From Chrysoperla carnea (Eukaryota; Arthropoda; Insecta; Neuroptera; Chrysopidae): DNA of 64,000 bases. The notes under the pieces are model-generated. The model was not told the origin of the DNA, made no database searches, and worked only from the letters and a program-made list of their open reading frames with translations. A program made the position numbers and the translations under genes. This document shows positions 26,106 to 50,808 of the stretch, piece after piece. Every line of letters starts with the position of its first letter. Position 1 is the first letter of the stretch. The DNA is taken from contig NC_058339.1 in the NCBI RefSeq assembly GCF_905475395.1, forward strand, positions 75,854,520 to 75,918,519, given 5' to 3'.

Positions 26106-26142
26106 TATAAAATGTCTGTTATGATATGATATTTCCTCAGTT
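26106..26142 (+). promoter_or_regulatory. Core promoter: TATA box plus TCAGTT initiator
   Basis: TATAAAA at 26106-26112 and the arthropod initiator TCAGTT at 26137-26142; the presumed start is the A at 26139, 33 bp from the first T of the TATA box. This is textbook spacing. The predicted transcript has a 5' leader of about 118 nt before the ATG at 26257. The acidic-repeat gene at 41219 has the same TATA-TCAGTT arrangement. Confidence 0.75.
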
Positions 26143-26256
26143 CTAATAATCACTTTTTTTTACAAAGTCGATAAAGTAGAAATAAATACACGCACTTTTA
26201 ATAATTTTTTATTAATTTTTTCATAAATAATAATTTTAAAAAAAAATACGGTGAAA

Positions 26257-28084
26257 ATGATGAAAATTGTATTTACTTTTACTTTAATTTTCGTAATTTT
26301 ATGTATATTTTTGGAAAATGCTGAAGCAGGTATGTTGTCTATATAATTTTCTTCATATCGTACGAGAACTGGCAACTTTTTTGAGAGTTTGTTTTAAGAA
26401 GACTGAATTTCGGATATTTCTTTCTTCATTGAACTTAGTTACTAATAAAATCCATCTTGAAACCCAACCAGAAAAAAAATATCTCAAATTCATTTCGTGT
26501 TAAAATCAACTTTTTCGTGTGACTGTCAGTTCTTATATCAAAAAATTCGAAATTATATTCGAAATCATTTTGGATATAATAACGAATAGTAGAATATTGG
26601 GATTCAAACCTCCTATTAGACACAGAGGTCATCCAAATTATTGCTTTTAAACATGTTTTTGCGTATCGCCCAAATTTATTTCAACTTTAACATTTTTTGC
26701 AAGAAAGGGAATAGATAATACATGGCCTAGGATAGATTGTGCAACTGGAGGCGATTTTTTTATAGGGACTACGTCAACAATTGTGCAGAAAAACTGCACA
26801 AGAAGTGACAGTTACTTTTTTTGTTATCTTTAAGTTCGCTTACGTTTAGTTTGACTTTCATATCCTGAACTTTTTTCGAGTTGAAGCATAGTTATTAGAA
26901 GAAATATTACTATACTTGAAAAAAATTGCCTATTTAGAAATTAAGCTACTGGCGATAATTACAATCGAAATATCGATATTTATCGAAATGTCTGAGAGAA
27001 GTCTGCTGAATGTTTTTCAATAACATTTTTTAAACAAAATTTCTTAATATACAATTTTATTTCGAGTATCGTGATATTTATTTCATTAACGATACATAAT
27101 CTGTTTTTAAGATATTATCTCGTCAATTCATTAGATAAACAAAGTATTAAAAGTTTTGGAAACTCTTTTGGCGTGATCTTGTTAAATATATATGTATGAT
27201 TTTTTTTAGTTTATAATGAAAACGAAAAATTTCAGAAAATTTTCTTAATAAACAAGTGTCTAACTTAATGAAAAATTAACGTTAAGATAAATTTCCAACG
27301 GTAATAAATTCTTCAAAGTGTTAAGAATATACCATAATTTTTTTCAAATTTTTAAATTAATATTTAATACCTTAAAAAAAATTATTTAGTTTGAGATACT
27401 CGTTATTGGCGATATTACAACAATCTAAAAAAGTCGCAAAAAGAAATATTTTCAGTGTTAAATGAAAATTATAAATAATGGAGAAAGACTTCCGGGGTGG
27501 GAGTTTGTTATTGAAAATTTCCTCCTTTTTAAGAACCTTTTTTTAAATTTCTTAAATATATTTTATGAATTATTGGCGAAAAAAGAAATACTTTTTTCAC
27601 CTTAAATTATTTATAACTTTTGCAATTTTTTATGTGCTGAAAAACGCTTTTGACACATTTTTCTAGACGCCATTTCGAATCCAACGAGCTACCACATGTA
27701 TTTTTACGATCATTATTTCTATATTTCACCAATTTGAACTTGTTGACTAGACTAATCGATTTTGTCTTTCCCAGTTAATTTTTAATGATAATAAAAGAAA
27801 TTTAGAGAATTTTAATTCCAGGGATTCCATTACAAAGAATCGATGCAACACCATCATCTGCACTTTTTGGTATACCAGATTTTTTGAAATCAATATTTAC
27901 AATGGTTATTAAAATAATAACCGATGTTGCAACTGGACAATTTGTTGATATTCCAATTTCTGTTTTAAAATTTGTAATGAGTATATTCACTCAATTTTTA
28001 CCAGGAATGATAGGGGGAATAATGGGAATGATAGGGGGAATGTCTGGAGTACCAGGCGCAACCAGTAATGTACCTATATCGTAG
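26257..28084 (+). CDS. Secreted cysteine-free peptide precursor, isoform a (111 aa, two exons)
   Basis: Exon 1 (26257-26329) starts ATGATG and encodes a 24-residue signal peptide: a short basic start (MMK), a long hydrophobic core (VFTFTLIFVILCIF) and a NAEA cleavage region. It ends in GCAG followed by the donor GTATGT. The 1.5-kb intron ends at TTAATTCCAG, and exon 2 (27822-28084) continues in phase 1, giving a total of 336 nt and 111 residues. The mature part (about 87 aa) has no cysteine, two predicted amphipathic segments around IPDFLKSIFTMVIKIITDV and IPISVLKFVMSIFTQFLPG, and a Gly/Met tail (GMIGG repeats). It is homologous to three further terminal exons downstream with the same acceptor phase. 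Function unknown; the layout suggests a secreted effector, antimicrobial or structural peptide, but nothing proves any of these. I chose the first ATG; the second is equally possible. Confidence 0.8.
26330..27821 (+). other. Intron 1 of the peptide locus
   Basis: 1,492 bp between donor GTATGT (26330) and acceptor TTCCAG (ending 27821). AT-rich, with nothing recognisable except a tRNA T-arm-like sequence on the minus strand near 26600, without an A-box partner. Confidence 0.7.
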
Positions 28085-28269
28085 TGTTGAAGTGTGAAAA
28101 AATTAATTATAATTTTTTTATTTTTGTTCTACATGTATACAAAAAATATTATTATACTCTAGATAATTACAAAGTAATGTTTACAGTTATTTATAAACAA
28201 TATACTTCAATTAACTGTATTCCATTACGCAACGAAATCTAATGTAGAATAATATTTTTTGTATTTTGA

Positions 28270-28296
28270 AATAAATTTGTATTAAAACTGAATAAA
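28270..28296 (+). terminator. Poly(A) signals of terminal exon a
   Basis: AATAAA at 28270-28275 and 28291-28296, about 190-210 nt after the stop. The 3' UTR stretch CAAAAAATATTATTATACTC and the TTCCATTACG/AATCTAATGTAG part recur behind the other terminal exons, showing that the duplicated unit included 3' UTR and poly(A) signal. Confidence 0.75.
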
Positions 28297-29224
28297 ATGT
28301 TTACCAAAATGTTTTCCGTTTTTCGACAAATACACGGAAGTTTAAAAACATTTTACACACGATTTGATACGATTCAACACATGAAATTTTACGATTTACA
28401 CTTGAAAACCAAATACATTTTTTCATGTACATAAACGCTTCTATACAAAAATGATTCCTTTTTCAAAAAAACTTCTGCTTGAAACTTTATTTCCAAATAT
28501 TTTTTATCTTTCTACCTTTTTCTACATCTTAGTTCTTACGATTTCTGTGTTAATTTTAACTTCGCACAGTTTCAATTCACTGTTTCCTGTCAGCAAAAAC
28601 CTGTTTGCAAGGCTTTTGATGAACTTTTCCATAATATTTTCGCATATTTACGGACTATCTTCATAAATAGTCGCTTTAATTTATTTCGTAAGCTCCAGGA
28701 AAGTCTGCTGGTCATTGGTATATACTTTTCTTTTCAAATAAAAACCCAAAAAAAAGAACTTCAGTTGTTTGAAAGTCTTTTGATGAAATTTTCGCATATT
28801 TACGGACTATCTTCATAAATAGTCGCTTCCATTTCTTTAAGAAATTTTAAAGAAGTTTTTTTAAGAAATTTTTACTACTGCACATGAAATGATTTCGGTT
28901 TTTTTGGGTGGAAAACTTTTCTGTTGAATATATCCATTCTATGATTCTGGGGGGGGGGGAATATTAAAACTGATGATGATGACTATGAACTGTACAAAAA
29001 TTGAATCTGAACAAATCGGAAGAAGAAACAAAGGCTGCGTTTAGCTGAATTGAATGCTTGATCAGATTGTCGAGGTGTACTGATACTAGGTTTTTAATAG
29101 CGAGGGCTTCTTTCGACTGGACGCAGATATTTGTAGAACTGCATAATTTATACAGAATGTTCAAAATCCCCTAGATCTATAAACTTCGTTTACGATAACT
29201 AAATTTTTTAGTGCTTAGAGCTGC
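28297..29224. other. Intergenic/intronic DNA with short tandem duplication
   Basis: The phrase TCGCATATTTACGGACTATC plus TTCATAAATAGTCGCTT occurs at about 28638-28674 and again at 28792-28829. A G9 run is at 28951-28959. No signal-peptide exon or promoter was found here, which matters for the model of the downstream terminal exons. Confidence 0.5.
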
Positions 29225-29480
29225 AGTTTTGAACGAATAGGGTATTCTATGTTAGAAAAAGTACTTCAAACTGTTAATTTTCCTAATAAAAAGTCACAAA
29301 ATATATATATCGGCAAAAGAAACACGCTTTCTTGCCATAAAATTAAATTAAACTTTTTTTATTCTCGCAAAAACGCTGTCAGTCATTTTAGTGACGTCAT
29401 TATTGGTAAAAGCAACAGTCGTATATGTGATTATTATATGTATTATGGCTCAAAATAAGAATATTTAAGTATATTTCTAT
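29225..29480 (+). repeat. Dispersed repeat family F, copy 1
   Basis: Shares GGGTATTCTA, TTTTTATTCTCGCAAAAACG, CTGTCAGxCATTTT, CAACAGTCGTxTATGT and CAGAATATTTAAGTA-type segments with 62730-63120. Confidence 0.75.
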
Positions 29481-29689
29481 GTAAATTTTAATTTTTATCA
29501 AATTTCATAATTTATTTTTCACTACAGAAAGTATCCTGTTCAACGCCGTTTACCATATTTTATAAAAAAAATTATGTAGTTGTAATGGATTAAACTAATC
29601 TTCAATGATTTCAAATCAAGTCAGAATTCTGATCTCTGAGCTCGGCAAGTTTTGAATTGCTCCGCCATCTTAAAATTGATTGTTGTCTA

Positions 29690-30140
29690 TCATACTCTAA
29701 AGATTTCTCCATACTCTCGTGAAATAGCACACAGTCGAGCGAGGAACGGCAAAATCGAGGTGATACTTGTGATGCCTCGATTTTCTTCGCTTTGCCTTGT
29801 TTGACTCGCTATAAGGCGATTTTTTGATTCAAGAACAACACGAAGTGCCCACGCGAAGGCACCTCTCACTTCTACATTCTCATGATTTCCTCGTAACTCA
29901 AAAGTTCTTGTAATATACACAATTGTACTATCTAAGAGCTGCCGCAGCAATTGTTTCCATTCGAATGGATGGAATGTCAGTCATAGCAATGAGATACTTG
30001 CGAAATAAGATTAGAGTGAGTGCTTCAATTCGGCTAACTTTGGAGTATATACTCGTCGAGGATATACCGTGAGAGTGTGGATAAGGGGTACTAAGAAGAG
30101 AATCTACCTCCGACACTGTCAACTTTTTTCTGAAACTCAA
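29690..30140 (-). pseudogene. Possible frameshifted coding relic, identity unknown
   Basis: A stretch with visibly higher GC than its surroundings carries two overlapping minus-strand frames, 30140-29928 and 29950-29690, that are one base out of register. If joined by a one-base shift they would read continuously for about 150 residues, through ETIAAAALR into QLLDSTIVYITRTFELRG. I recognise no family. It could be a decayed retrocopy, a repeat fragment or chance. The plus strand also has an open stretch here, so even the strand is uncertain. Confidence 0.25.
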
Positions 30141-30893
30141 GATGGCATATTGAGTACCTTCAAAGCTGCAAATCGTTTTGAGAGAAAACTTAACTTTATT
30201 ACATTATTATTCTCAGTTGAAATTCAAATTTTATGGAGGGTAGAGATAAGGAGAACCATCTTTAATAGTGGTTAAAGTAAAAATGTGTTCAGCTAAAAAC
30301 AGTAAATAACAGTTCTAAAATTGGCCAGAATGGCGCTTGCGTAGCAAAAGGTGTTTAATGTGAGCTTCTCTATTCTTTGAGAACTTCTTTTAAAACTTAC
30401 ACTTTTCTACAGTAGCGTCATCCTTATTTGCTATGAATTCTATGAATTCAGCCACTATAAAAACTACACGATATGATCCAAACGCCTTCAGGCAACCTTT
30501 CTGTGAGAAAAATTTTATAAGTTACCTAAAACATTAGATTCAAAAACAATACTTCAAAAAGTTGTTGACTTCAAAGAGAGAGGCTATTATAAAGGCTTTA
30601 CATATTATTTTGAATTCAAATTCTATCGATCTATTTATAATTAGAAACAACGTTCCTACAAAAAAGTAGGGAATAATTTTCGAATTAAAGTGGTCTTCTA
30701 TCTCTTATCATTTACGACCTCAAGTTCATTTGAGGGCCCAAGTTAAATTCAATGTCTTTTTAAGATATTCTCTACTGACCCTGAAGCAGAAAAGCATAGT
30801 AAAAATTTAATCAAAAAATTTACTCCTATTATCAAAAAAAACCAAACTTTAATTTCATAATACAAAAGCATTTAAGCCAACTTTAAATTCCAG

Positions 30894-31147
30894 GAAAACT
30901 ACAAAGACTCAATACAACAAAACCTTCATTTAGAAATACAGCAGGAGATTTAATGGATGCAATACAGACAATGCTTGGCGAGATATTAAATGCTATTGGA
31001 GCCGGACGAGTTTTCAATATTCCAGTGGCCGTTTCAGAATTTGTATCGAATCTTTTCAGTAATATTATACCAGGAATTTTACCAGGAATTATAGGAGGAG
31101 GAGGGGGAGGAAATGGAAACGGGGAAATTAATATTGCAAGTGTGTAA
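30894..31147 (+). CDS. Alternative terminal exon b of the secreted-peptide locus
   Basis: Starts after TTTAAATTCCAG (ending 30893) in phase 1, so it joins perfectly to the signal exon at 26257-26329 (73 + 254 nt = 108 aa). The product begins GKLQRLNTTKPS and contains the family core: a helix (DLMDAIQTMLGEILNAIGAG), then FNIPVAVSEFVSNLFSNIIPG and a tail of glycines with NGNG. No cysteine. No in-frame signal peptide or own signal exon was found between 28300 and 30894. It is either an alternative last exon of the upstream gene or an orphan copy. Stop at 31145-31147. Confidence 0.75.
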
Positions 31148-31292
31148 TAAACAAAAATGGGAACGAATTCTTGTTCTCTGCATGTTAACAGAACAGTATT
31201 ATTATGAGTTAGATAGTTGCAAAGACCCGTTGCAGTTATATGTGCAATGTACTTTAGTTAATTGTATTCCATTCGAAATTGTATTAAAAATG

Positions 31293-31298
31293 AATAAA
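31293..31298 (+). terminator. Poly(A) signal of terminal exon b
   Basis: AATAAA within TGTATTAAAAATGAATAAAA. The context is homologous to the 3' UTR of exon a (TTAATTGTATTCCATTCGAA against TTAACTGTATTCCATTACGC). Confidence 0.75.
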
Positions 31299-31454
31299 AA
31301 TTTTTACCAAAATGTGTTCGATTTTTCGAAATATTACACGAAACACGAAACATAAAAATCTTACACATTTTCTTCACACATGATTCTACACACATGTACA
31401 CGTTAATACAATTAATATAGGGTTTTCCAAAAAGAGCGCTTGAATTTTAAATAA

Positions 31455-31880
31455 AATCGAGTGAAAACAAACAATTGACTTAGTGTTGAATGTTGATTAC
31501 CAAATCGTTTGTTTTTTCACGTCATGTAAGTAAAGAAAGATAGCCACACATACATACATGTCACACACACATTACTGATATTCCTATATAATACATACTA
31601 TTTAATCTTCACCTAATTTAGATCCTCACGGCTAAACAGTCAGACGAAAAAATGTATCTAACAAAAGTTATTAATTTTTTTATAAGGAACATTTTTTTTC
31701 ATTTAAACTTTTGTACTATCTCTAACGGTTCACAAGATGGGTCCCACGGACCCAAGACATGACTTTTTACGTCTTGAGCATGCTATAAAAATTTCGGCTT
31801 GATATTTTTTTTCGTTTTTGAGTTATCGTGTTGACAGACAGACAGACGAACAAACGGACAACCGAAAATGGACTTACTAA
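31455..31880 (-). repeat. Dispersed repeat family A, copy 5 (truncated)
   Basis: Runs from ACAAACAATTGACTTAG through TTTGTACTATCTCTAACGG and GAGTTATCGTGTTGACAGAC to CAACCGAAAATGGACTTA, then stops; the last ~120 bp of the family are missing. Confidence 0.85.
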
Positions 31881-32850
31881 TATGGCACTGTTTCACTGGG
31901 TGTTGCTGGGTATTCGAAAGATTCAATTTTGAATGACACGATCGCATAAATCGGTCTCAATGTCATTAATGGCATAAGTTATCTAACTAGAATATCCTTA
32001 AACTAAAATGCCAAACCGAATCACTGTGAATTACGGAGGCTAATAAAACTGTGAACGAATGAATGCTTTTTCTGAAACCAACAATTATCGACAAAAACAA
32101 AGGCCAGAACACTGGCTTACTGAAATTAACAAAAGAAAAAGGTGGGCGAACGAACAAATTTTTGTTGTTGGCTCCAATTATTATACACAAAGTTCAGCAG
32201 CGTGGAGATGGCCAATATAAAAAAGGAGCCATAGGTTTCGATTATGAATTTTTTTTTAAATTAAAAATTTTTTAAAATCTATTAACGTGTACGGGCTTTG
32301 AACTGACAACCTTCGTATTGGTAGCGGGTACTGAAGGCACAAAATCACGTACCATTTCGTTTCTGTTCGTGGCATTGATGTCACTTGTGTAATTCAATTA
32401 AAGGTGTCAAAATACTGAGTTTGTTAGCCTAGATCATTGAATCCTTCTCCTTCGTGGCAAATTTTTAATGTCATTTAAATTAGTTTCAAAAAGAAATTTA
32501 TTAAAATACATTTTATTGAAATTGGTTCTTTATAAAACCTTTTTCCACTGTATAAGTTCTGAGCTGTTGAAAATTTTATTATAGTCAACTTTCTTTCCTG
32601 TTACATACAAACCTAATTTTCCATCATCAAAGTCCGGGTAAAAAGTTTCTTTCTTACAAGAGGATGGTGGAAAGTTCTCATTCAGGAAACCTTGAATAAT
32701 TTTATTTGCTCAGCAGGCTTAAAAATGGCCAATATTCACAATGAGGGTACTTCAATAAAACAAAGGCCTCTTAACTCGAAAATACAACACTTGCCACTAT
32801 ACACATGAACTTTATAAAAAAAAATATACTTCAGCCTATTCTTATTCCAG
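31881..32850. other. Non-coding DNA between terminal exons b and c
   Basis: No signal exon, promoter or recognisable repeat end. The small frames at 31987-32275 are not credible genes. Within the peptide-locus model this is intron upstream of exon c. Confidence 0.45.
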
Positions 32851-33302
32851 GTAAATTACAAAACTTCAATGTAGCGTCACCTGCTTTAAGAGCAGATTCA
32901 GATACAGAATTAACGGATTCAATAAAAAAATTGGTTGATGATATACTAAATGCTGTCCAAACAGGGAAATTATTGGATATTCCAGGGGCTGTCATAGAAT
33001 TTATATCGAATTTATTCAGTAATGTTATTCCAGGAATAATCGGTGGAATCTTTGGAGGTATAAGAGGGGGAAATGCAGAAAATCTAAGAATGACTCTCAA
33101 TGCAGCAACACCTTTATCGAGAGCCGACGCAGAAACCGATTTAAGGAATTCAATACAAGGATTTACTGAGGATATACTAAATGCTGTCCAAACAGGAAGA
33201 TTATTGAATATTCCAGAAGGTGTCACGGAATTTGTATCCAATTTACTCAGTAATATTATTCCAGGAATAAAAGGGGGAAATGGAGACAGTAATGTTCAAT
33301 AA
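32851..33302 (+). CDS. Alternative terminal exon c, with two tandem peptide units
   Basis: Starts after CTTATTCCAG (ending 32850) in phase 1; joined to the signal exon it gives 174 aa (73 + 452 nt). After GKLQNFNVASPAL it contains the family core twice: unit 1 from RADSDTELTDSIKKL to IPGIIGGIFGG and unit 2 from RADAETDLRNSIQGF to IPGIKGG. The units are alike over about 55 residues (DILNAVQTGxLLxIPxxVxE, then FxSNLxSNxIPGI). Each unit begins with R-A-D, which could mark proteolytic release of two peptides; that is inference. The upstream in-frame ATG at 32805 gives no signal peptide, and the frame crosses a good acceptor, so I start at the acceptor. No cysteine. Confidence 0.8.
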
Positions 33303-33408
33303 AAAAATTTCATTACATATTTATTGTCTATATATGAACAAAAAATATTATTATACTTTAGATAATAGATTAATTACACAGATAATCCAATTTTCTACGA
33401 AACTGATG

Positions 33409-33965
33409 ACAAAATTGCTCTCAGAAAACAAAAAAAATACGTTGTTATAGAAGAAAACAAGCCGAGAAACATAGTGTTTTTTGTTTACAGCTAATGAATG
33501 GCTAAGTTAACCGAAAAAAATCTCAAAAGTCAAAAAAACGGTTTCCTTGCGATTAAAAAAAAAGTTGGCGTCTAATATAACGACTAGAGATTTGTGAACC
33601 AATTACTCAATAACTTACTACCTATTAGTAAATATCAACTTTAAAATCGAAAAAAAAAAGTTATAGGCAAATGTAAAAACGTCTATTTTCGCTAATTTTT
33701 TTAAATGTTTTCTCGTAACCTACGTATTCAAATCGTTACTAACCAGACGTTAATCGATAGCTTCTTTTAAGATCTTGAACTTTCCCTTTAATTTTTTTGC
33801 ATTGGATATCAAATTTTTTTATCGCAAGAAAACCTTTTTTTGATTTTTGCAAATTTTTTTTGGTTACCTTAGCCATTGATTAGCCGTAAACAAAAAACGC
33901 TATGCTTCTTTTCTTGTTTTCATCTATAACAACGTATTTTTTGTTTTCTGATAGCATTTTTTTTC
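33409..33965. repeat. Foldback element inserted in the 3' UTR of exon c
   Basis: Arm 1 begins GCTCTCAGAAAAC (33417) and includes ATACGTTGTTATAG and GTTTTTTGTTTACAGCTAAT. Arm 2 ends GTTTTCTGATAGC (33956) and is the complement at roughly 85% by eye over about 150 bp. The flanking 3' UTR segments (ATTATTATACTTTAGATAAT before, ACGAAATCTAATCTGG after) are adjacent in exon a, so the element split a pre-existing UTR. Confidence 0.85.
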
Positions 33966-34119
33966 AAATTAAACATTGAGCCTCCGTAGATTAATTGGAT
34001 GAAGAATGGATGTCAGCTGTATAAACATCATACAAATGACTGGACTCCATTCGCCACGAAATCTAATCTGGTATAATAATATTTTTTATATTATGAAATG
34101 AATTTTGTATCAGAAAATT

Positions 34120-34125
34120 AATAAA
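34120..34125 (+). terminator. Poly(A) signal of terminal exon c
   Basis: AATAAA in CAGAAAATTAATAAAATTAT, in UTR homologous to that of exon a, about 820 nt from the stop because of the foldback insertion. Confidence 0.7.
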
Positions 34126-35763
34126 ATTATTCTTAAAATGAATTTTATTACAAAGCTAGCATTTATACCTGTGATTTAGTTCACGTGGTTAAACAGAGAC
34201 AGTTACGTGGCGAAGAAGACTTGTCTTTTTTTGGGTAAAATTATAATATTTTAGACATTAATTTCCTATAACTTTTGAAAAAAAAATGCTCATTGAAGAT
34301 GAATTTTTGTAATATAAAAAACAGCGTTCAAATTAACCTTAAAGATATGTCTCATTAAAGAATGGTTGAAGAACTTCTTGGACATACCCAAGCTTGGATT
34401 TACATATTGGGCCACATGAGCCATGGCTCTAGGCGGCAAATTGATCGGAAGGTCAAAATATTTTTGCGCACATGTGAATTTGATCTTAGGCATGACAAAA
34501 AATGCTCAAGTTGTGGAAAAAATTTTATACTTTTGAATTTTTTTTATATCAGACATTTCTTGCTATTGCCCAAAAGCGATATTATTTGCTATTGTCCATG
34601 GGCGTTATTTTTGCTATTGCTCAAGGGTGGCACTTTGTATAAATCTGGTCCTGGGCATAAAATAACTAAAGTTTCATTCCTAATTCAATTTTTGAAAACT
34701 CAAAAATGAAAAGAGGTAGAAAGTTGAAATTTTCATATTGAGTTTATAGCTGAAAAGAAAAAAATATGATTATGAGTTTATGAAGACACGAAAATTGAAT
34801 TTTTTTTAAATATATATGATAATGTTAAGAATAATGTTATTTTTTGGGAGTCATTATATTTTAATACTTGTTCAACGTTTTATAAGTATCTCGAGTGAAA
34901 TATTTTTCCGGGATAAAAACTAACTCACAAGACTCGAACCTTTGACAATGTCTACATGCACAAAGATCCCGCCGATCGGAATTTTTCGTGTGATACATAC
35001 TTTACGCATCTCACAAGAATGATATATTTTATCCAGGCGAAAAGTAATTCATTTTACCCTGCGGCTGTCTTTGTGATCGGAATCTTACGTTTTGGAAAGA
35101 AAAAGCGCAGGCAATCAAACAAACTGAAATTGAAAACAATTTTTTCTGATTCGATCGGCTTTCTAAGATTTCGCAGACGAAATTCATTAACACAAAGTTA
35201 ACATTAACGCAAAGAAATTCATTAACCAGATGTCTTCTGGTTAAAAATTCTGACAAAAAAAGATATTTTTGAAGATATAAAAATATAATATTAACTTTTA
35301 AATATGCTACTATAATTCTCACTCGCTACTTTTATCCATTTAGTGAATTTCCTTTTGCACAATCTATAGGTTTTGTATCGATACTGGAATTTTGCAAAAA
35401 AAAAATATATTACGTGCTCTAACGGAATTTGGGAAAATATAAGAAGAGGGTTAGCGGAAAAGGTTAAACACAAGTTTTTCAATTTTTCGATTAATATGAA
35501 AAATAATATTTACGACATTTTTCCAGCTGAAATTTTTTTTTCATATTTGATATTTTCAGATCTTTTTTTATCTTTTATGTTCTAAAATACAAAATTTTTT
35601 TATTCGACTTTGAGTAACGATTTTTTGTATTTTCTACCCGACGCCAACGCTTCTATTTTGAATTTTATTGTAAAGTCAAATAAAGAAAGACATTTAGAAA
35701 GCTAGGAACTTTTACTAAAAATTTTTTATTCATATGAGTTTATACTTTCGAAAAATTTTTCAG
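34126..35763. other. Non-coding DNA between terminal exons c and d
   Basis: No signal exon or promoter seen. Several frames of 60-115 codons (34362-34709, 34956-35201, 35373-35585) are AT-driven and lack domains. A GGTTCGAGTC B-box-like sequence on the minus strand near 34930 has no A-box. Confidence 0.45.
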
Positions 35764-35987
35764 GGATTGTACAGGAGTTGCGGAGGACAATCCTTTCAAT
35801 GAGAGCTGATGCAGATTTAGTGCCTGCGATAAATCAATTGGTTAATCAAATTTTAGCCGCTGTTCAAGCCGGGCAAATTGATAAAATTGATGGTTATGTT
35901 ACGGATTTCGTCAACAATTTATTGAATAACATTTTGCCACCAGGAACTCTAGGAATGAAATTGATACAGGAGAAAAATTTGATCTAA
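35764..35987 (+). CDS. Alternative terminal exon d of the secreted-peptide locus
   Basis: Starts after AATTTTTCAG (ending 35763) in phase 1; joined to the signal exon it gives 98 aa (73 + 224 nt). The product begins GIVQELRRTILSM, then RADADLVPAINQLVNQILAA, VQAGQIDKIDGYVTDFVNNL and LNNILPPGTLGM. It shares the RAD start, the ILxAVQxG core and the FVxNLLxNI stretch with exon c, but the glycine tail is replaced by a short KLIQEKNLI end. No cysteine. The most diverged and most distal member; it may be functional or decaying, though the frame is intact. Confidence 0.7.
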
Positions 35988-36009
35988 GATTTTATTATAA
36001 AAGGAAGTC

Positions 36010-36325
36010 AAAACTCTTGACTTAATAAATAAGCTTATAAAGACGAACGAAAAAGTTATTTACCAAATTTCGATCTGAGTCCTAATTTCCCAGATAATTA
36101 TTAAAATCAGTTAATAAATTTATCCAATAATAGAGCTCTTAGAAATATAAAGATCTTTATCGTTGCATTTAATTATCATATTATTTATCACATTTCTAAG
36201 TGCTCTGTCATTGGATAAATTTATTAATTGATTTGGTTTATTATCTCGGAAATTAGGCCTCAGATCGAAATTTGGTTAAAGAGCTTTTTCGTTCGTCTTT
36301 GTTAGCTTATTTAGGAATTCAAGTG
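36010..36325. repeat. Foldback element in the 3' UTR of exon d
   Basis: Arm 1 (about 36010-36130) contains AAGACGAACGAAAAAG, AAATTTCGATCTGAG and CTAATTTCC; arm 2 (about 36205-36320) contains GGAAATTAGGCCTCAGATCG and CTTTTTCGTTCGTCTT. Loop about 70 bp. It is not the same sequence as the foldback behind exon c. Confidence 0.85.
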
Positions 36326-36557
36326 TTCTGCAGTCAATTATAGAACACCTTGTAATACAAGTATACCAAAAATATTATTTTAAGCTAAAAAGATAATAAT
36401 TTTATTTAAGTGTCACAGTGCTATAATAGGCCATAAAACACCTTAACACCATGGAAGTAAATATTCACATTCAAACTTAATAAAATTTCATTGTATAGAT
36501 GATAATAATATTTTTCGTATATCAGTATACTTATTAGATTTTATATCTGTAATTGAA

Positions 36558-36563
36558 AATAAA
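36558..36563 (+). terminator. Likely poly(A) signal of terminal exon d
   Basis: AATAAA in GAAAATAAATAAATAA. The preceding AAGTATACCAAAAATATTAT (about 36360) matches the 3' UTR of exon a, so the UTR was interrupted by the foldback. Confidence 0.6.
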
Positions 36564-36674
36564 TAAATAATTTTGTAAATGGAAACCTTTGAGAATTTTT
36601 TGATTATTTCAATGTTTCACATCATGAATTTTTCAGTATTTTAAGTAAACAGTAATAAACAATTTTTGAGTATT

Positions 36675-36830
36675 TTTAACCCCCGAATCAAAAAAAGGGT
36701 GTTATAACTTTGGCCGCTATATGTGTCTGTCTGTAGTATCGTAACACCTAAACGGATGAACCGATTTGGATTTTTTTGTGTCGTTTGAAAGGTAAATTAA
36801 TCTGGAGTGTTCTTAGCTATATTACAAGGG
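36675..36830 (+). repeat. Dispersed repeat family B, copy 2
   Basis: Starts ACCCCCGAATCAAAAAAAGG, followed by GTGTCTGTCTGTAGTATCG and ACGGATGAACCGATTT. Same family as 7035-7215, opposite strand. Confidence 0.8.
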
Positions 36831-36967
36831 CGTGTTTAGATTTCCCGGAGCCATTTTGATCTAATAACAAGTTACTATGGTAACTTTTTAATATTCTAAT
36901 TTTCTCAATAACTCATTACATGACAAACCTATATATATAATGGTACAGTAAATCTGGCATTTTGACA

Positions 36968-37890
36968 GGAAAAAATTACAATAGTGGATCTGAGGTTATG
37001 GATCGTTAGGGGGGCATGTAAATAACTTAAAAAAAATTAAGAGAATTTTTCGTTCCGCTGTTTTTGAGAAAATCCAAAAAAATGGGAAAAAAAATGGGAA
37101 ATCCAAAAAAATTTGGAATGCGTTTTTCTCGGAATCTATTGATTTAAGGGAAAAATTTTTCAAATAAAAAATGTAGCAGACACTGTCAGCTACATTTTAT
37201 GTCATTGGAGCAACGTCATACGAGTTAAATTACAAAAAGTAGGTGGCGTTAAAGTATTAAAAAAAGGGTTTTTCACGATTTTCATTAAGAAAAAATGATG
37301 TTTTTGTAAAAGTGTAAATGAAAAAGTTGTTTGACTCAAAATTAAACAATTTTTTTGTAAAACTTACCGTTTTTGAAATACAGCTTGCTAAAAAATCTGA
37401 AAGTTAAGTTTTTTAAAATTTTGAATAGGAGTACTTGATTTCGTTTTTATTTTCTTGGTTTATTTTAAACATACATTGTTTTACTATAGCTCGGAAACGG
37501 TAAGTTTTTCATAAAAATTGTTTAAATAAAAGTTGAAGCTAATTTTGAGTCAAACAACTTTCTCATTTACACTTTTACAAAAACATCATTTTTTCTTAAT
37601 GAAAATCGTGAAAAACCCTTTTTTTAATACTTTAACGCCACCTACTTTTTGTAATTTAACTCGTATGAAGTTGCTCCAATGACATAAAATGTAGCTGACA
37701 ATGTCTTCTACATTCTTTATTTTCCCTTAAACCAATAGATTCCGAGAAAAACGCATTACAAATTTTGTTTCCCCATTTTTTTGGATTTTCTCAAAAACAG
37801 CGGAACGAAAAATTCTCTTAATTTTTTTTAAGTTATTTACATGCCCCCCTAACGATCCATAACCTCAGATCCACTATTGTAATTTTTTCC
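36968..37890. repeat. Large foldback element, ~400-bp arms
   Basis: The ends are GGAAAAAATTACAATAGTGG (36968) and its complement ending at 37890. Long stretches such as GAGAATTTTTCGTTCCGCTG and GTAGGTGGCGTTAAAGTATT are perfectly inverted, and pairing continues to a centre near 37390-37490. No coding capacity. High identity of the arms suggests recent insertion, here between family B and another repeat. Confidence 0.9.
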
Positions 37891-37899
37891 AGGTCCGGC

Positions 37900-38430
37900 C
37901 TTTTTTTCGTCTATATTGACTGAATCATAATGCTTTGTCCTGAATGACTGGCTGACTAGATGACGGATCAACGTACAGTCTAAACCACTGATCGTAAAGA
38001 CTTGAAACTTGGAGGATGTGTTCTTTGTATGACGTAGGTATCCAATAAGAAAGTATTTTCCGAAGTTCTACTCCCAAGGGGATGAAAAACGGGAGCAAAT
38101 TTGTCGGGGACAACGTGATTCCTTGGTCAAATCTACTTCAAATTTTTCATAAATATATCTCTATACATATAAAATGAATTGCGAGATACAATTTATTATG
38201 GTCATCTGTTCAACCAGAGTTTTCGAATATTCTCAATGACGCCTATTTGACATTTTAGAAAATATCAAAAATTGTATGTACCTATACTTTTAGCTATGTA
38301 AAAAAATTCCTATCCATATTTCGAGTGTTATGGAAGGGGGATAAGTGAGAGCACGTGAAATGAAGGCTATATAACGAGGTGGTTGTTACTTACTACCCAG
38401 CGAAGCGCGCAGGTATCTTGCTAGTTTTAA
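37900..38430 (+). repeat. Interspersed repeat ending in GCGAAGCGCGCAGGTATCTT
   Basis: Contains TGAATGACTGGCTGACTAGA, CAACGTACAGTCTAAACC, TATGACGTAGGTATCC and ends CAGCGAAGCGCGCAGGTATC then TTGCTAGTT. This layout resembles a very common non-autonomous insect repeat. The minus-strand frame inside it is not a gene. Confidence 0.55.
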
Positions 38431-38595
38431 ATGATAATTACTGTTTATTTTCACATTTTAGAGAAGTAGATAAAGTTTTGTACAATACCCGTGTGAAAAC
38501 ACATTATTAACATACTTCGGCGCAAATTTCGCATACTTACGAGAATAATACTATTATCCCCACTTATATCGTAATTAGTTATTCCCTAACAACCA

Positions 38596-38700
38596 GTGTG
38601 TCCCCGGATAGAGGTAACTATACTTGTAAATTTTCTATTTTGCATTTTAAGAAAAAAATTCATTCTTTATAACAAATTTTACTTATTCTGAAATTCTATC
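38596..38700 (+). repeat. Dispersed repeat family E, copy 2
   Basis: CAGTGTGTCCCCGGATAGAG and about 90 bp after it match 15719-15850. Confidence 0.8.
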
Positions 38701-38704
38701 TTCA

Positions 38705-39302
38705 TTTTATACAAGTGAAAACAAACAATTGACTGAGTTAACTGTTGAAATACCATGTATAGACAGTGTTGATGCGCAGTCGTTTGTTTTTTTGACCTCA
38801 CGTAAATAACAAAAGATATTCACTTTTAAATAGACACACACACAACTGATATTCCTATATTAATACATACTATAAAATTTGCACCTAATTAACGCCCTGG
38901 TGAGTAAACAGTGATGTTTACAAAAAAATGTTTCAAACAAAAGTTTTTTATTTTATTATAAGGACCATTTTTTTCATTTAAACTTTTGTTCTATCTCTAA
39001 CGGTTTACAAGATGGGTCCTACGGACCCAAGACCCAATTGACCTATGATGCTCATTTACAAACTTGACCTCACTTTTTACGTCCTGAGTACGCTGTAAAA
39101 ATTTCAGCTCGATATCTTTATTCGTTTTTGAGTTATCGTGTCCACAGACGGGCGGACGGACAACCGGAAATGGATTAATTAGGTGATTCTATGAACACCT
39201 ATACCAAAATTTTTTTCATAGCATCAATATTTTTAAGCGTTACAAACTTGGGACGAAACTTAAAATACAATGTATATTTCATATATACATGGTATAAAAA
39301 TT
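38705..39302 (-). repeat. Dispersed repeat family A, copy 6 (near full length)
   Basis: Most complete copy: GTGAAAACAAACAATTGACT at the start, ATACCATGTATAGACAG, TCTATCTCTAACGGTTTACA, GGTCCTACGGACCCAAGACC, GGGCGGACGGACAACC and a final ATACATGGTATAAAAATT. Confidence 0.9.
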
Positions 39303-40467
39303 GTAATGCCAAAGAATAAGTAGTTATTTACTCATAAAGATTTTTAAAAAAACGTAATTTAGAGAATTTATATCTTTTTTGAAGTTAAGTGGACCTAAAC
39401 TAGTTCCGCTACCTTAGTTTAAAATTCAGACAAATTGACTGCAGTATACTATATTGATCATGATTTGATGCTTAATAAAAGAAGTCTTATTACGGCTACT
39501 CTGATATTGCTAATTATTGTTGGTTAAGTAAATAATTATAATAATATTAGATAATTAACCAAACATTTTAATTAATTAAATGTGACTTTCTAGTTACATG
39601 TTTATGAATTTCAAAAATTGCTATTTATGCTTTATTAAAAGCAAGATATGAAAAGGATATCATTAATAAAATTCTTAATTTTTTTTCATGGTTAATATTT
39701 ACGTACTTACGTGGTTAATTTAATGATATTTGCGAAAATAATTATTTTTAGCATTTTAATTTCCTGATGGGAAATGGTTGTTTCTATCCCGAAAATTTTT
39801 TTAGTTATATAGTAGTTATTTAGCTTTCGATATTTCGAAAATCAAGGCAAATATCGAAAAATCGTATTCTTATATTTCGTCTACATTCATGAAGTTATAA
39901 CAGAATTCATAATCAAAGTTGAAAATAAGTACGCTCGTACTACCTTAAAACTTAAAAAAAAGTATATAATTCAAATTTGATGAAAACGGTCCGATCTACA
40001 TATTTTATTCGTATTTTTCTCAGCAAACCCTTTCATTGGACACCCATATCATGAAAGTGCATAAAAAAAACCAGTCCACCATCTTTAATTTGTTTTGTTT
40101 ATTGAAAAATTCCAAAATTATATTCCTGATTTATATCTAGTGCATATCCTGTCCGTTTTGTAGCCCTTTTAACATATACCTTCAGACGATTTTACGATTA
40201 TGGCACTACTTACTCCCCTATGGCATCTAAGTTTCTCAATTATAATTGAATTCTCTTGTTTTATCTGTTTGCGTCCCTTAAAATGTAGAAATTTGTAAAT
40301 GGGGAATTTTTAGGGTTTTTTCTTTATAAAAAATACAAATACTAATCGAAAAGGAATGTAATCATCCTACAATTGACGTCAATGCTAAACTTGATATCTG
40401 TTAACGATAGCGCAAAATATACCTATATTTAAAAAAAATAAACAATGCTGCTATAATTATATATAGT
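39303..40467. repeat. AT-rich DNA with family C fragment
   Basis: 39790-39950 matches the first part of family C (CGATATTTCGAAAATCAAGG, CATTCATGAAGTTATAACAG). The rest shows nothing gene-like. Confidence 0.5.
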
Positions 40468-41001
40468 CGCAGAAACGAAGCAAAGAAGTTCGAAAAATTT
40501 GAATAGTAAGTCGAATTTGAATGCGGTTTCGGCATTCGATTCGTTAATAATATGCATTTTAATTTAACCGTAAATATACTAAATTCACAATTTGGTTAAT
40601 AGCGATGTAAATAATTCAAAATTTGTTACTTGAGGGATTTTGGGGTAGCTGAGCACGAATATTGTGACGGAATTAATCTTAGGAGTACCCCAGGGCCCAA
40701 GTATCTGGTGCCCGATTCTGTCGCGACATTCGTATTCAGCGATCCCAAAAACTCCCGAGTAACGAGTTAGGACCGTCTATATAACGAATTTCTTGAAAAC
40801 TCCAAGAGACGGCGTATACCGTTTACCCTGGGCACCAGGTACCTCGGAAACTTATTCTGGCGTTCCCAAAAACCCTCGAATAACAAGTTTGGAATCATTT
40901 TCATCACTATTAACCGAATTGTATTAACCCACATTCAAAATTCGACTTACTGTTCAAATTTTTCGAACTTTGACCGTTTTTAATGTGTAGTTTCTGCGAC
41001 T
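40468..41001. mobile_element. Terminal-inverted-repeat element (MITE-like)
   Basis: Ends GTCGCAGAAAC (40468) and GTTTCTGCGAC (41001). The inverted pairing extends about 60 bp inward (TTCGAAAAATTTGAATAGTA against CTGTTCAAATTTTTCGAA). TA flanks both ends, so a TA target duplication is possible. The interior (about 40545-40930) is family G, with an internal inverted repeat around a GGGCACCAGGTACCT-like core. No transposase. Confidence 0.8.
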
Positions 41002-41108: not shown

Positions 41109-41143
41109 TATAAATGGAAGGTTTTTAAATATTACAATCAGTT
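41109..41143 (+). promoter_or_regulatory. Core promoter: TATA box plus TCAGTT initiator
   Basis: TATAAAT at 41109-41115 and TCAGTT at 41138-41143; the presumed start A at 41140 is 31 bp from the TATA box. Leader to the ATG at 41219 about 79 nt. Same layout as the promoter at 26106. Confidence 0.75.
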
Positions 41144-41218
41144 AGTCGTTTCAAGTGTTTTGTGGCAAATACCCTAAACTGAAAGAGTATTTTTGTCATT
41201 TTCCAGTAGAAAATCACC

Positions 41219-43651
41219 ATGAAATATTTACTATTCATTTGTTTAACTTTCATCTGTTTATCCATCTACTGTGGAAATGTTGAAGCAGGTATGAAAAATT
41301 TAATTTTTTTAATTTATAATCGCTTAAAAAATCATGTTTTTTTGGAACTGGCAACGTCTGGAAAGAGTTGATTTCTTATTGAAATTGGGTGGGAAGGAAT
41401 TACGTTATGGCACTTGAAAACGGTTGAGTAGAGTGTGTTTAGTTCGTTTCCACTCTCTAACGTTAAAACTGCTGGTTTGAAGAAAATTTATTATTAACAG
41501 TATATTGCGACTTTTGGCCAGAAAGTTCGATTTTCTAGCGTATGTGATATAAAGGCCGGAAAGAAATCAAGGCATAATATCACAGACGCCAAGGTAGCCA
41601 ACATTCGGGCCATAATTTGTATACTATTTTTCTTTATCCTCTTCGTTTCTTCTATCCATATCGTTTAAGGTAGCACGAACGCCAAGGCAATTATAGACTT
41701 AGGGTTGAAATTATTTGTACCTTATTTGCAACTTTGACGATGAATTTTTTTATCACTTCATGAATGTAGACAAAAATAAGCCTTGGTTTTTGAAACATCG
41801 AAAGCTAAATAATTAAGCAAAATTTTCAATTTTCGATATTTTGAAAATTACCTCAGATATCGAAAAATAGTATTCTTACTTTTCGTCTTATTTTGTCAAG
41901 TTATTCACCATCAAAATTGAAAATATATTTTTTTTTAAATTTGTGTTTCCCCTACCGTGCTCATACACCCTTAATTAGTCTAGCACAACGGGTTTTTTTT
42001 TGTTTTCAATAATTTATTAAGGTTTTAACTATAAATTAAATAGTTTTTTTTTTTTTTCGTCCAACTAGTCTTGGAGAAATCTATGAAAACATATCATCCA
42101 TCTACCGTTTTATTCATAAGATCAATGTTAAATATGCCTACTTTAGAAGTCATTTATTTATTTAAATAATCGGGCAATCCACTAAAATTATCAGAATAGA
42201 CTTAGACTTAGTCCAACTTCATATAAAAAAAATCAAGCCTATAATCCAAAATTGCCCTGGCGCTCGTACTTCCTTAATTCATTTGATTATGATTTAATTT
42301 ATAATCAATTTTAACATGCCAGACATAAATTTGGTTGCTATACTAACGCATTTCATGTGAGTATAGACTGATTTTTGCTGTTCAGAGCATGAGTTGATTT
42401 TTAAACAATTTAATCAGTTTAGGTCAATTTTTCCCAAAATAGCTTCATTCCTCTTCTTCAACTTCTTCAACAAATTTTCAGCTTGATTACTTAAAATGGA
42501 CACTATTGCCTCAAAATTTATTACAACTAATTTACATTACAACAAATTTCGTGCAACAATAGCATCGTCCACCTGTTTTAACAATTTTTCTCATTTGTAC
42601 ATTTTTAAATTTTTCTATTTTTGACAGCTTCAGCGGTTAATACAGTTCAAAGCTGTTTCTATGGAACTTGTCAGTCCAGGCATTTTTCCGAAAATATGTT
42701 TGGTTAAGAAATTTTCCGCTGGTTTATTTAAAATGGGCACTATTGTCTCAAAATTTATTACAACTAATTCCGCTTTTGTACAAAAGATAGCATGTTTAAC
42801 TGATTTGGGTTATCTTTTATACGTTAGCGCTTGCTTCGTATTTTTAACACTTTTCCATGAAACAATTTCCCTCATTTGTACAATTTTAGTTTTTTCTATT
42901 TTTGACAGCATCAGCGTCACGACAGTTCAAAGCTGTTTCTATAGGACGAGAAGCTGATACTGCAGATGATGATCAAACTATAGAACCAGAAGATGGAGAT
43001 GAAGATAACGATGATGATGATGATGATGCAACTATAGAACCAGAAGCTATGTCTCTGAAACTAGAAGGTGTTTATATGAGACCAGAATCTCTTTTTATGG
43101 CACCAAAAGCGTATTCTATGAAATCCAAACGGTCCAATAATGCTGAAGATGAAGATGAAGATAACGATGATGATGACGATGATGCAACTATAGAACCAGA
43201 AGCTATGTCTCTGAAACTAGAAGGTGTTTCTATGGGACCAGAATCTCGTTTTATGGCACCAAAAGCGTATTCTATGAAATCCAAACGGTCCAATAATGCT
43301 GAAGATGAAGATGAAGACAACGATGATGATGACGATGATGCAACTATAGAACCAGAAGCTATGTCTCTGAAACTAGAAGGTGTTTCTATGGGACCAGAAT
43401 CTCGTTTTATGGCACCAAAAGCGTATTCTATAAAATCCAAACCGTCAAATAATGCTGATTTAATGGTAATGGTTATGAAAATGATGCAATATGCACAAAA
43501 TAAACAGTGGGATCGTCTCATTGAAACTGGAATGCAATTAATGAATCAAGTAATGGCACAAATGGGATCAGGTGACTTACAAAGTAGCTTAAAAACCTAT
43601 CTTCCATTAATCGAAATGGTTGCAACTATGCTTTTAAAACAATACGGATAA
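41219..43651 (+). CDS. Secreted acidic protein with three 52-aa repeats (270 aa, two exons)
   Basis: Exon 1 (41219-41288), in a good Kozak context (CACCATG), encodes a 23-residue signal peptide (MKYLLFICLTFICLSIY, then CGNVEA) and ends GCAG before the donor GTATGA. Exon 2 (42909-43651) follows CTATTTTTGACAG in phase 1; 70 + 743 nt = 270 aa. The mature protein starts ASASRQFKAVSIGREAD. Three 52-residue units (DATIEPEAMSLKLEGV, then SMGPESRFMAPKAYS, KSKRSNNAEDEDEDNDDD) are nearly identical, a 156-bp period in DNA. A methionine-rich helical C-terminus follows (NADLMVMVMKMMQYAQNKQW to MLLKQYG). No mature cysteine. The Asp/Glu blocks suggest metal or cation binding or a basic partner; this is inference. 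I do not recognise the family. Gene architecture and promoter match the peptide locus upstream. Confidence 0.88.
41830..42285 (+). repeat. Dispersed repeat family C, copy 3, inside the intron
   Basis: CAGATATCGAAAAATAGTAT, TTTTGTCAAGTTATTC, CCGTGCTCATACACCCTTAA, ATGAAAACATATCATCCATC and CCCTGGCGCTCGTACTTCC match 13940-14395. It lies within the 1.6-kb intron of the acidic-repeat gene. Confidence 0.8.
42470..42942 (+). repeat. Tandem duplication covering the start of exon 2
   Basis: Unit A (about 42474-42660) and unit B (about 42711-42942) share TTAAAATGGxCACTATTGxC, TCAAAATTTATTACAACTAA, CTCATTTGTACA, TTTTTGACAGC and CAGTTCAAAGCTGTTTCTAT. The offset grows from 237 to 281 bp because of an indel. 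Unit B carries the real exon 2 start, unit A a relict copy. Confidence 0.85.
42628..42707 (+). pseudogene. Relict or cryptic copy of the acidic gene's second exon
   Basis: Follows the same CTATTTTTGACAG acceptor as the real exon. In phase 1 it reads A-SAVNTVQSCFYGTCQSRH and stops at 42705-42707. A one-base insertion relative to the real exon (CAGCGGTTAATACAG against CAGCGTCACGACAG) throws it out of the QFKAVSIG frame. Use of this acceptor would give a short secreted peptide with two cysteines; more likely it is a dead duplicate. Confidence 0.6.
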
Positions 43652-43745
43652 ATATTGGATGGTACAACGGCATACAGGAATACTGATAATTAATTATTTA
43701 TAAATTTTTAGAAAGTAATTATAAAAATGTATTATTTTAAACTGT

Positions 43746-47861: not shown

Positions 47862-50808
47862 ATGTCTGTAAATTACATCAATGCAGAATTCATAAAATCT
47901 TTCGTAAATAATTGTAACAACAATAATTGTTATTGCAATAATATGATTCGATTACGTGCTGGATCTGACCGTTTAGTTGCTGTTGAAAAATCAAAACCAA
48001 TACCATTTCGTGCGTTAAATACACGACGTGCAAATGCAATGCGTTACATTTTATTAGATTATATTAAAGAAAAGCCAACACGTGATATGCGTGGTTTATA
48101 TGTGATTCTATCGAAAGATAAACGAAAGGCAATGGAGAATATTGCTGCGGATGCATTATTTCGAAAAAAAGATGCATATCCACCAGAAGAACGATTTTAT
48201 CCGTTGCATGTAAAACCAACAGGTATGAAGTAATTTTTTTAAGAACCCTAACACACTTTTACACAGTTAGTACAGTTAGAGATGTTACAAATAAAGGAAA
48301 ATGATAGAAACTTATACGTACACGTTATACATGTGTAATAGTTTTCGATTATTTGACAAACACTTAACATTTACGTCATTCAAGTTGCCTATTTACTAAT
48401 TTTTTTAAGTGAATTTTAACATTGATCGTTTCATTGAATTAAAAAATTATAGTTTATTAACAAATAGAAACATTTGCATCACTGACTCATGCCTTTTTTT
48501 TTAATTAATACTGGCTTCAGCCAATTTGCTATATAGCAATTACCCAAAGAAAAAATACAATTATATTACAATAAATAATAAATAGATCAACAAAAAAATT
48601 AACATTCAGGAAAAAAAGTTCAATTTAGAAATTTAAAAAAAAAAATTAAATTGTTTTCTGGTTTGCAAAAATAAAAAGATGAATCTCAAACAGAAAAAAA
48701 ATGATATAAATTGTAATTAAATAAAAAAAATTTCAGTTAAAAAAAGAGTAGTGAAAAAAAAGTAAATGAAACATACTTTTCTATTTTACGAACACAAGGA
48801 CACATATGGAATTAGTTAGGAAGTGCGTCGTCAGAACCGATCGAGACTTTATACAGAGGAAATATCACGAAAAAAAACATAGGTTGGGGACCGCGGGAGG
48901 GCTAACAGTAGAGTGGGCTACGCACAAATTTTTTAATATAAACCAAAAAAATAGATAAGAAGGAGGGGAGGTTGTATTTAAATTTGAACTTTGGACTTGT
49001 TGAGGAAGTTGCAAATTGCAGAGAAGATTTCAAGCTTATTTAAAGATAGGAGATGGGGAATATAATACAGACCAAAACTCGTGCCTTACTAATGATATTT
49101 AACACCTAAGAAACACATTCTATTAGGTTTTAGCAAAATAACAGCGGTTTCTTTCATTTTCCTTTTAATAACCGCTGTTTGTAAAAAAATAAAAATTAGA
49201 GAAATTAAGACAGACCCTGGATTTTTTACGAATTTAGCTAGACACCAAATTTTTACATTGATTTCAGTCCTGAAAACGACTGCATTTTTTTTGCATATTT
49301 CAAACTGATTGGAGTACTTTTAGTTTTTTTGATAATAATAAGTTATTTATATTTATTTTAATTTATACCTTGATCTGGAAACCGGATACACACCTCGAAA
49401 ACTGAAATCTAAAAACTAAGAGATGCCAATTCCCTTTTCGAGCTGTGATCTGACTCGTGACGCAACATATATTTACTTTTTATATTTTAGATGATACGTA
49501 TTATATACCTGAAAAGAAGATCGATCAAATGGCATATGTTGTAAATAAATTTCGAAAAAAATCAAACGAGTCAATTATCAGTGATGTAACATGGGAAGAA
49601 TCTGAAACAAATCTACAAGAATCTGATGAAATTGTTGATTTAAAAACATACAAAATATGTGAAAATATTGCAAAAGCTGATCATTTAGTGGATCTTTTAG
49701 AACAATACACATTTGTGGACAAAGAAGATTATGTACCACCAAAATTCAAACAAATGAATGAGTCAATGGGGAAACCATATCGATCAATTTATGAAAGTAC
49801 TACTCCCACCACTACAACATTTGAATCATCGAATCGTATTCCGGGTAATTAGGAATATTTGGATTTTTTAATTGTATCAAAATGTAAAAAATGTCGATTG
49901 CCTGAAGACTTCCGTTATTGCAGCCGATCGAAGTTTCCCACAATTTTTTTTTCATTCCTTATTCACTTAACCCAAAATTCGATTCAAAACATACCACACA
50001 CACAAAAATTTGTTCCAAATTCTCCTTCTTTTTTATACATATCTCTAATCTAGCCTTATAAAAAAACACAATTTTTATGCCTCCCTGGTGGAAAAAATAT
50101 TTGAAGAAAGAATAAGTCTTAGAAACTCTTAAAAGTCTTGAGGTAGTTCGGCTGTTTGAGCAAGTACGATTAATGTGCATTTTTCAAGTTTTTTTGCGGT
50201 AAATGACAGTTCAAAGTCACTTGATCACAATAAACAAAGTTTTGAGGTCTCTTGCGGGGCAAAATTTTGAATTATTTCTTTTTAAAATTTTTAACACAGT
50301 ACCTTATGGAAGAACTGACAATAATGTTGTACAAAAATTAATCGATGGTTGAGCTTCAAAAAAGTTTTCATCATTTATAAAGTTTTCAATTTATCACAGA
50401 TTTTATTTATGTAAATAAAACATTACCTTACGACGCTTTCCAAAAAGAAAACATTGGTTTATGACGCTTTTACGATATTTTAAGAGCATTTTATTACAAT
50501 TACGTCATGCAAATTGCCTAATTTACGATACATATTATTACATTTACGTCATACAAATTGCCTAGTTGCCTAGTTACGTGACGATCGAACCACTTTAAGA
50601 ACTCTGAAAAACTCTTCGGAATTATGAATAACTCTGAATTTCTCAACGTTTTTGGACTGTCTAATTCAGAGTTATGAAGACTTATTCAGTCAGAATTAGA
50701 CAGTCCAAAAACGTTGAGAAATTCAGAGTTATTCAGAGTTTCTAAGACTAGTGTAGACTTTTTCTTCCTTCAAATATTTTTTCCACCAGGGCATGTTCGG
50801 AATCTTAG

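Follow-up and report, generated by a model that had tools for sequence, protein, structure and literature searches.

Whether a single signal exon can serve four complete secreted peptides is the question raised by a locus in the window, by which we mean the whole 64-kb stretch of DNA that was analysed. The initial annotation had interpreted the locus as a cassette in which one shared signal exon is joined to any of four last exons, and this remains the best reading of the layout of the DNA. Based on the sequence, we consider it probable that the locus is a single gene for secreted peptides whose four alternative last exons (a to d), each with its own poly(A) site, arose by tandem duplication. 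The 5′ part of this gene (gene 1) had been placed at 26106-26329, and we found its coordinates, its phase-1 donor, and its strict TATA/TCAGTT match as claimed:

26106..26142, plus strand, TATA box and TCAGTT initiator (strict motif match)
26257..26329, plus strand, coding part of the signal exon, encoding MMKIVFTFTLIFVILCIFLENAEA and the first base of a Gly codon

TATA/TCAGTT is a promoter form pointing to insects, and strict matches to TATA..TCAGT(T/C) occur three times on the two strands of the window, i.e., at 26106, 41109, and 48705. The last of these (48705-48738) has no strict signal exon behind it. The signal exon of gene 1 encodes 24 residues plus one base of the Gly codon and ends in the donor GCAG/GTATGT at 26329. 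Using a scan for signal exons (ATG, hydrophobic stretch, small-residue end, and phase-1 donor), we found at strict settings two donors on the plus strand of the window (26329 and 41288) and none on the minus strand; in 30 replicates of Markov-1 random sequence, the mean was 0.07 signal-type exons per strand and the maximum was one. The strict scan, a purely mechanical one, found no signal exon within 28084-35764, i.e., between terminal exons a and d, as had been claimed. The donor at 41288 belongs to a neighbouring gene, which serves here for comparison and lies outside the cassette:

41109..43660, plus strand, gene 2, with TATA/TCAGTT at 41109, signal exon at 41219-41288, and last exon from 42909

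The signal exons of genes 1 and 2 are homologous, with a local alignment score of 40, a value that none of 5000 shuffles and none of 4967 other stretches of the window attained. The promoter and 5′ UTR pieces of the two genes have no alignable homology beyond an A run. Because the scan picks up the diverged signal exon of gene 2, it has some power.

That gene 2 owns a homologous signal exon also speaks for a different explanation, according to which a to d are four separate genes and the promoters and signal exons of b to d are too diverged to be recognised or are split over two exons, an arrangement that would escape the scan. The claim that 28084-35764 lacks a TATA-TCAGTT promoter holds for strict matches but not for relaxed ones, which we found between the terminal exons at 28719, 34020, and 34638. 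When the donor score was lowered to 5, the scan returned up to 21 donors on the plus strand and 20 on the minus strand of the whole window, compared with a Markov mean of 12.9 for one strand, and a donor score of 4 gave 56 and 55. Inside 28084-35764, these looser scans yielded only a weak signal-like open reading frame between c and d (34816-34885), to which the score of 4 added a piece of exon b; the stretches between a and b and between b and c were empty apart from exon b itself. The open reading frame at 34816-34885 has a poor donor and no signal-peptidase-type end, and the best match to the conserved end of the signal exon in this region is 13/19, compared with 19/19 in both real exons, from which the 19-position motif was itself derived. 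For lack of a credible signal exon, we rejected 28719, 34020, 34638, and 34816-34885 as separate starts, and we consider four separate genes very unlikely.

The four terminal exons behind the donor of gene 1 are as follows:

27822..28084, plus strand, terminal exon a, 87-aa product after the signal (in-frame join, homology)
30894..31147, plus strand, terminal exon b, 84-aa product after the signal (in-frame join, homology)
32851..33302, plus strand, terminal exon c, 150-aa product with two tandem peptide units (in-frame join)
35764..35987, plus strand, terminal exon d, 74-aa product after the signal (in-frame join, homology)

Each has a CAG acceptor, joins the signal exon in frame in phase 1, and ends in a stop, which bears out the earlier description for all four; the precursors comprise 111 (a), 108 (b), 174 (c), and 98 aa (d). 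Their proposed paralogy is far beyond chance. In a tblastn search of the 64 kb with exon c, the matches listed include b (4e-20), a (8e-10), and d (7e-9), and a profile of the peptide unit, run against all six frames of the window, matched exons a to d only; the next match had an E value of 0.17, and the profile search detected no further copy of the unit in the 64 kb. Exon c carries the unit twice in tandem, 231 nt apart (c1 and c2), and the alignment of the five units has eight invariant columns. The coding sequences of a to d differ from one another at 33-50% of the aligned sites. Among all C/T-AG acceptors in 26330-41000, those giving an in-frame product of at least 60 aa are the acceptors of a to d, sites within exons a, b, and c, and 29241/29256, which represent one overlapping open reading frame and the sole such product outside a to d. 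Two direct repeats of 61 nt, 152 nt apart and 89% alike, lie between exons a and b (28626-28838). The locus has the anatomy of alternative last exons, i.e., one donor, compatible terminal exons, stops, and AATAAA, with the poly(A) signal of d being ambiguous. This anatomy is real and unlikely to be due to chance, and the fact that one signal exon, of a type expected 0.07 times per strand per 64 kb, precedes four in-frame exons argues for alternative last exons.

The sequences downstream of the stops were analysed as a second line of evidence:

28085..28339, plus strand, 3′ UTR and poly(A) region of a, with AATAAA at 28270 and 28291, homologous to b and c
31148..31343, plus strand, 3′ UTR and poly(A) region of b, with AATAAA at 31293
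33303..34140, plus strand, 3′ UTR of c, with AATAAA at 34120, split by a fold-back repeat at 33427-33947
35988..36567, plus strand, presumed 3′ UTR of d, with fold-back repeats at 36009-36330 and a provisional 3′ end

By itself, AATAAA is weak evidence because its background density is 2.2 per kb; what counts is its homologous placement at 28291 (a), 31293 (b), and 34120 (c), the last 817 nt downstream of the stop. The 3′ UTR of a can be aligned with the 3′ UTR of b and, as two separate pieces, with that of c, which is interrupted by an inverted repeat with 134-nt arms (84%). The homology between a and b extends from the exon to 43-45 nt beyond AATAAA, and that between a and c to 15 nt beyond. 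Thus, homologous 3′ UTRs with AATAAA, originally proposed for all four exons, are confirmed for a to c. For d, the proposal is weak because the whole alignment with a differs at 97 of 214 sites (with 431 gap columns); one clear block of 33 nt (E value 9e-6) and weak matches of 17-21 nt are shared. The presumed 3′ UTR of d contains fold-back repeats with 97- and 62-nt arms (85% and 81%) and five AATAAA motifs (36024, 36113, 36479, 36558, and 36562), the first 36 nt past the stop. In the introns upstream of the acceptors, we found no colinear homology at an E value of 0.05; four short plus-strand matches of 19-31 nt, with E values up to 0.05, do not adjoin an acceptor.

These borders of homology bear on the main rival explanation, in which only exon a is functional and b to d are slowly decaying orphan terminal exons of tandem gene duplicates whose promoter and signal exon were lost or never copied. 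The poly(A) region has been kept in a to c, and the exons can still be aligned when the sequence around them no longer can, both of which argue against decay; however, the shared borders could also be chance ends of duplicated segments. There are precedents for orphans: in the available portions of a study of ant venom peptides, orphan mature-peptide sequences that have an incomplete coding region and no reads are described as lying between the venom peptide genes (PMC10800049), and the window itself contains a partial copy of the start of the last exon of gene 2 (at 42628), which, if spliced to the signal exon of that gene, runs out of frame and terminates at 49 aa. The four frames of a to d, in contrast, are intact and have AG acceptors, a state usually broken by neutral drift. 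In simulations of drift with 17.5% change per lineage (4000 trials per exon; the lineages of a to d are not independent), the probability of remaining stop-free was 0.15 (a), 0.12 (b), 0.017 (c), and 0.13 (d). These values are not to be multiplied freely because the lineages are non-independent and the exons were found as open frames, and the simulation tilts toward function because the reading frames were spotted for being open.

Substitution patterns give the orphan-exon explanation some of its weight. Pairwise dN/dS values of 0.61-1.45 are near 1 and indistinguishable from neutral in all 10 pairs of the five units (400 neutral simulations per pair, at a divergence slightly below that observed); purifying selection is not supported by dN/dS, and it does not decide whether b to d are orphan exons. 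In four of the 10 pairs, second codon positions accounted for a smaller fraction of the changes than in 95% of the neutral simulations (d/c1, 0 of 400; b/c1, 0.005; b/d, 0.03; a/c1, 0.048); this fraction was unremarkable in the remaining six. We also compared coding sequences with 3′ UTRs, a comparison that favours UTR identity because the UTR pieces were picked around matching blocks. With this bias, coding sequence differed more than 3′ UTR for a/b (99/246 vs 49/176, p 0.0097), a/c1 (92/225 vs 45/201, p 5e-5), and a/c2 (99/216 vs the same 45/201, p 6e-7). For exon a, divergence is greater in the peptide than in the 3′ UTR. As a general rule, a mature peptide outpacing its 3′ UTR was rejected and has no part in the probabilities given here, the effect being absent for b and c (75/225 and 75/213 vs 57/153; p 0.44 and 0.74) and barely present for a/d (108/216 vs 97/214). 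Relaxed or diversifying selection with fast evolution would fit a to d, and the case for constraint on b to d comes from their open frames, their acceptors, and the poly(A) regions that are shared, rather than from dN/dS. Overall, we judge it unlikely that b to d are orphans.

The preferred reading of one gene with four alternative last exons is supported because a to c share homology from exon to poly(A) region, because the introns lack colinear homology, because the frames are open despite expected drift, and because changes at second codon positions are scarce in four of the 10 pairs. It is weakened by the neutral-like dN/dS and the unremarkable second positions in the other six pairs, by the promoter-like sites and the open reading frame at 34816-34885 between the exons, and by the invasion of the 3′ UTRs of c and d by repeats, with the 3′ UTR of d barely alignable. 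According to this model, transcription would start at ~26140, the single signal exon would be spliced to the acceptor at 27822, 30894, 32851, or 35764, and the transcript would be cleaved at the poly(A) site belonging to the chosen terminal exon. Thereby, the secretion signal would stay constant, and the whole mature peptide would swap with the terminal exon. We propose that cleavage at a proximal exon competes with splicing to a more distal exon and that this competition makes the choice, that all four ends are used, and that the tandem exon duplicates behind one signal exon encode fast-evolving products. Some use of any intact acceptor downstream of a functional donor is to be expected, and it is conceivable on this general ground that the alternative ends are read-through by-products of one dominant isoform with unregulated choice; four open frames and a poly(A) region common to a to c suggest that the gene has kept more than one of its ends, and by-products are the least probable of the explanations considered here.

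The products of a to d were described as cysteine-free, amphipathic peptides with Gly-rich tails. Indeed, they have zero cysteines, and their 11-residue helical hydrophobic moments reach 0.53-0.73; a, b, and c contain 11, 15, and 17 Gly residues, but d, with five in 74 residues, lacks a Gly-rich tail. A clear net positive charge is a criterion for cationic linear antimicrobial peptides, and the net charges of the whole, unprocessed products are 0 (a), 0 (b), −6 (c), and −1 (d). We infer that they are membrane-active defence or venom-type peptides of near-neutral to acidic character. The assertion that they belong to no recognised family stands in the collections searched. The four precursors had no Pfam-A match above the curated cut-off (best E value for the five units, 0.011), and none of the products matched the serpin domain; a profile of the five units had no match among PDB sequences to an E value of 5 by sequence comparison; 90 pattern matches of the unit alignment in viral contigs and 109 of exon c, the only exon searched, in prokaryote genome contigs gave no confirmed relative; and six peptide fragments had none in full-text papers. 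These absences say little because the collections do not include insect genomes.

The last exon of gene 2 is a different peptide exon. It has no significant similarity to a to d by the unit profile, and its tail was not supported as a homologue of their family (3.2 bits). From 42909, it consists of three 156-nt repeats (97% matches) with acidic stretches and KSKR/KSKP sites, followed by a Met-rich tail. Tandem copies span its intron-exon border at 42469-42942 (42580-42662/42861-42942, 88%; 42469-42532/42706-42769, 89%), and the upstream copy of the exon start at 42628, which stops early, retains an AG acceptor. Elsewhere in the window, an open frame at 21093-21815 matches DUF4786 (E value 2.9e-29), an arthropod family that, together with the promoter form, suggests an insect source for this DNA, and a frame of 2044 aa at 51194-57328, open from stop to stop and with several tandem repeats, had no Pfam match to an E value of 1 and no PDB match to 0.01. 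An Rfam search of the window at gathering scores gave no match, and a tRNA search gave no result.

The locus was initially presented as the best candidate in the window for an undescribed system. For the mechanism, "undescribed" is too strong because secreted proteins with alternative last exons or with duplicated C-terminal exons are known (PMC10513286, PMC6700725, and PMC12758981, in their available portions); the peptide family may qualify. Among the closest systems are insect serpins, in which a shared 5′ part is spliced to any of numerous C-terminal exons, and the available text reports 21 C-terminal forms of PpSerpin-1 of Pteromalus puparum, secreted forms, the origin of some of these exons by duplication, a splice that in 161 of 192 such genes falls one nucleotide past the hinge codons, and a dN/dS greater in alternative than in constitutive exons (PMC10513286). 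In those excerpts, serpins vary the last 44-50 residues on a constant body, whereas here the constant part is the signal peptide and one Gly; moreover, a to d have no serpin match in Pfam. Arthropod venom genes are also similar in that events of this type are tallied as a class of their own, with 30 alternative-last-exon events (28.3%) in the house spider (PMC6700725) and further cases in lacewings (PMC12758981); the portions of these papers at hand describe no four-exon whole-peptide cassette. Likewise, the literature retrieved by topic terms, as partial texts, contained no account of peptides related to those of a to d or of a cassette that swaps whole peptides four ways.

We tentatively suggest, at somewhat less than even confidence, that the locus represents an undescribed family of secreted insect peptides that diversifies mainly by duplicating exons behind a single export exon and less by duplicating whole genes, in which one promoter, together with the choice of poly(A) site, determines which of four complete mature peptides is made, and in which a cluster pairs homologous export exons with unrelated peptide exons. 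If the ends are used as proposed, poly(A)-site choice at one locus would replace the entire secreted product; if true, this would be a compact test case of whether fast-evolving defence or venom peptides can diversify through alternative last exons in place of gene duplication. Another close parallel is provided by the skin peptide genes of pipid frogs, for which the accessible part of one paper describes related export exons, tandem peptide exons, diversifying mature peptides, and a terminal exon attached by alternative splicing (PMC3731216); "homologous export exon" appears there in the title of a cited reference. By the description in that part, the duplicated Xenopus exons are nearly identical and are set apart from a to d, which differ by 33-50%, and in Silurana two 5′ parts (cpf-St4 and cpf-St5) share one common terminal exon, the reverse of the layout of a to d. 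Genes 1 and 2 have the frog-type export-exon layout, i.e., homologous signal exons and dissimilar last exons, which is a likeness rather than membership, and the homologous signal exon of gene 2 in front of a different peptide suggests export-exon reuse.
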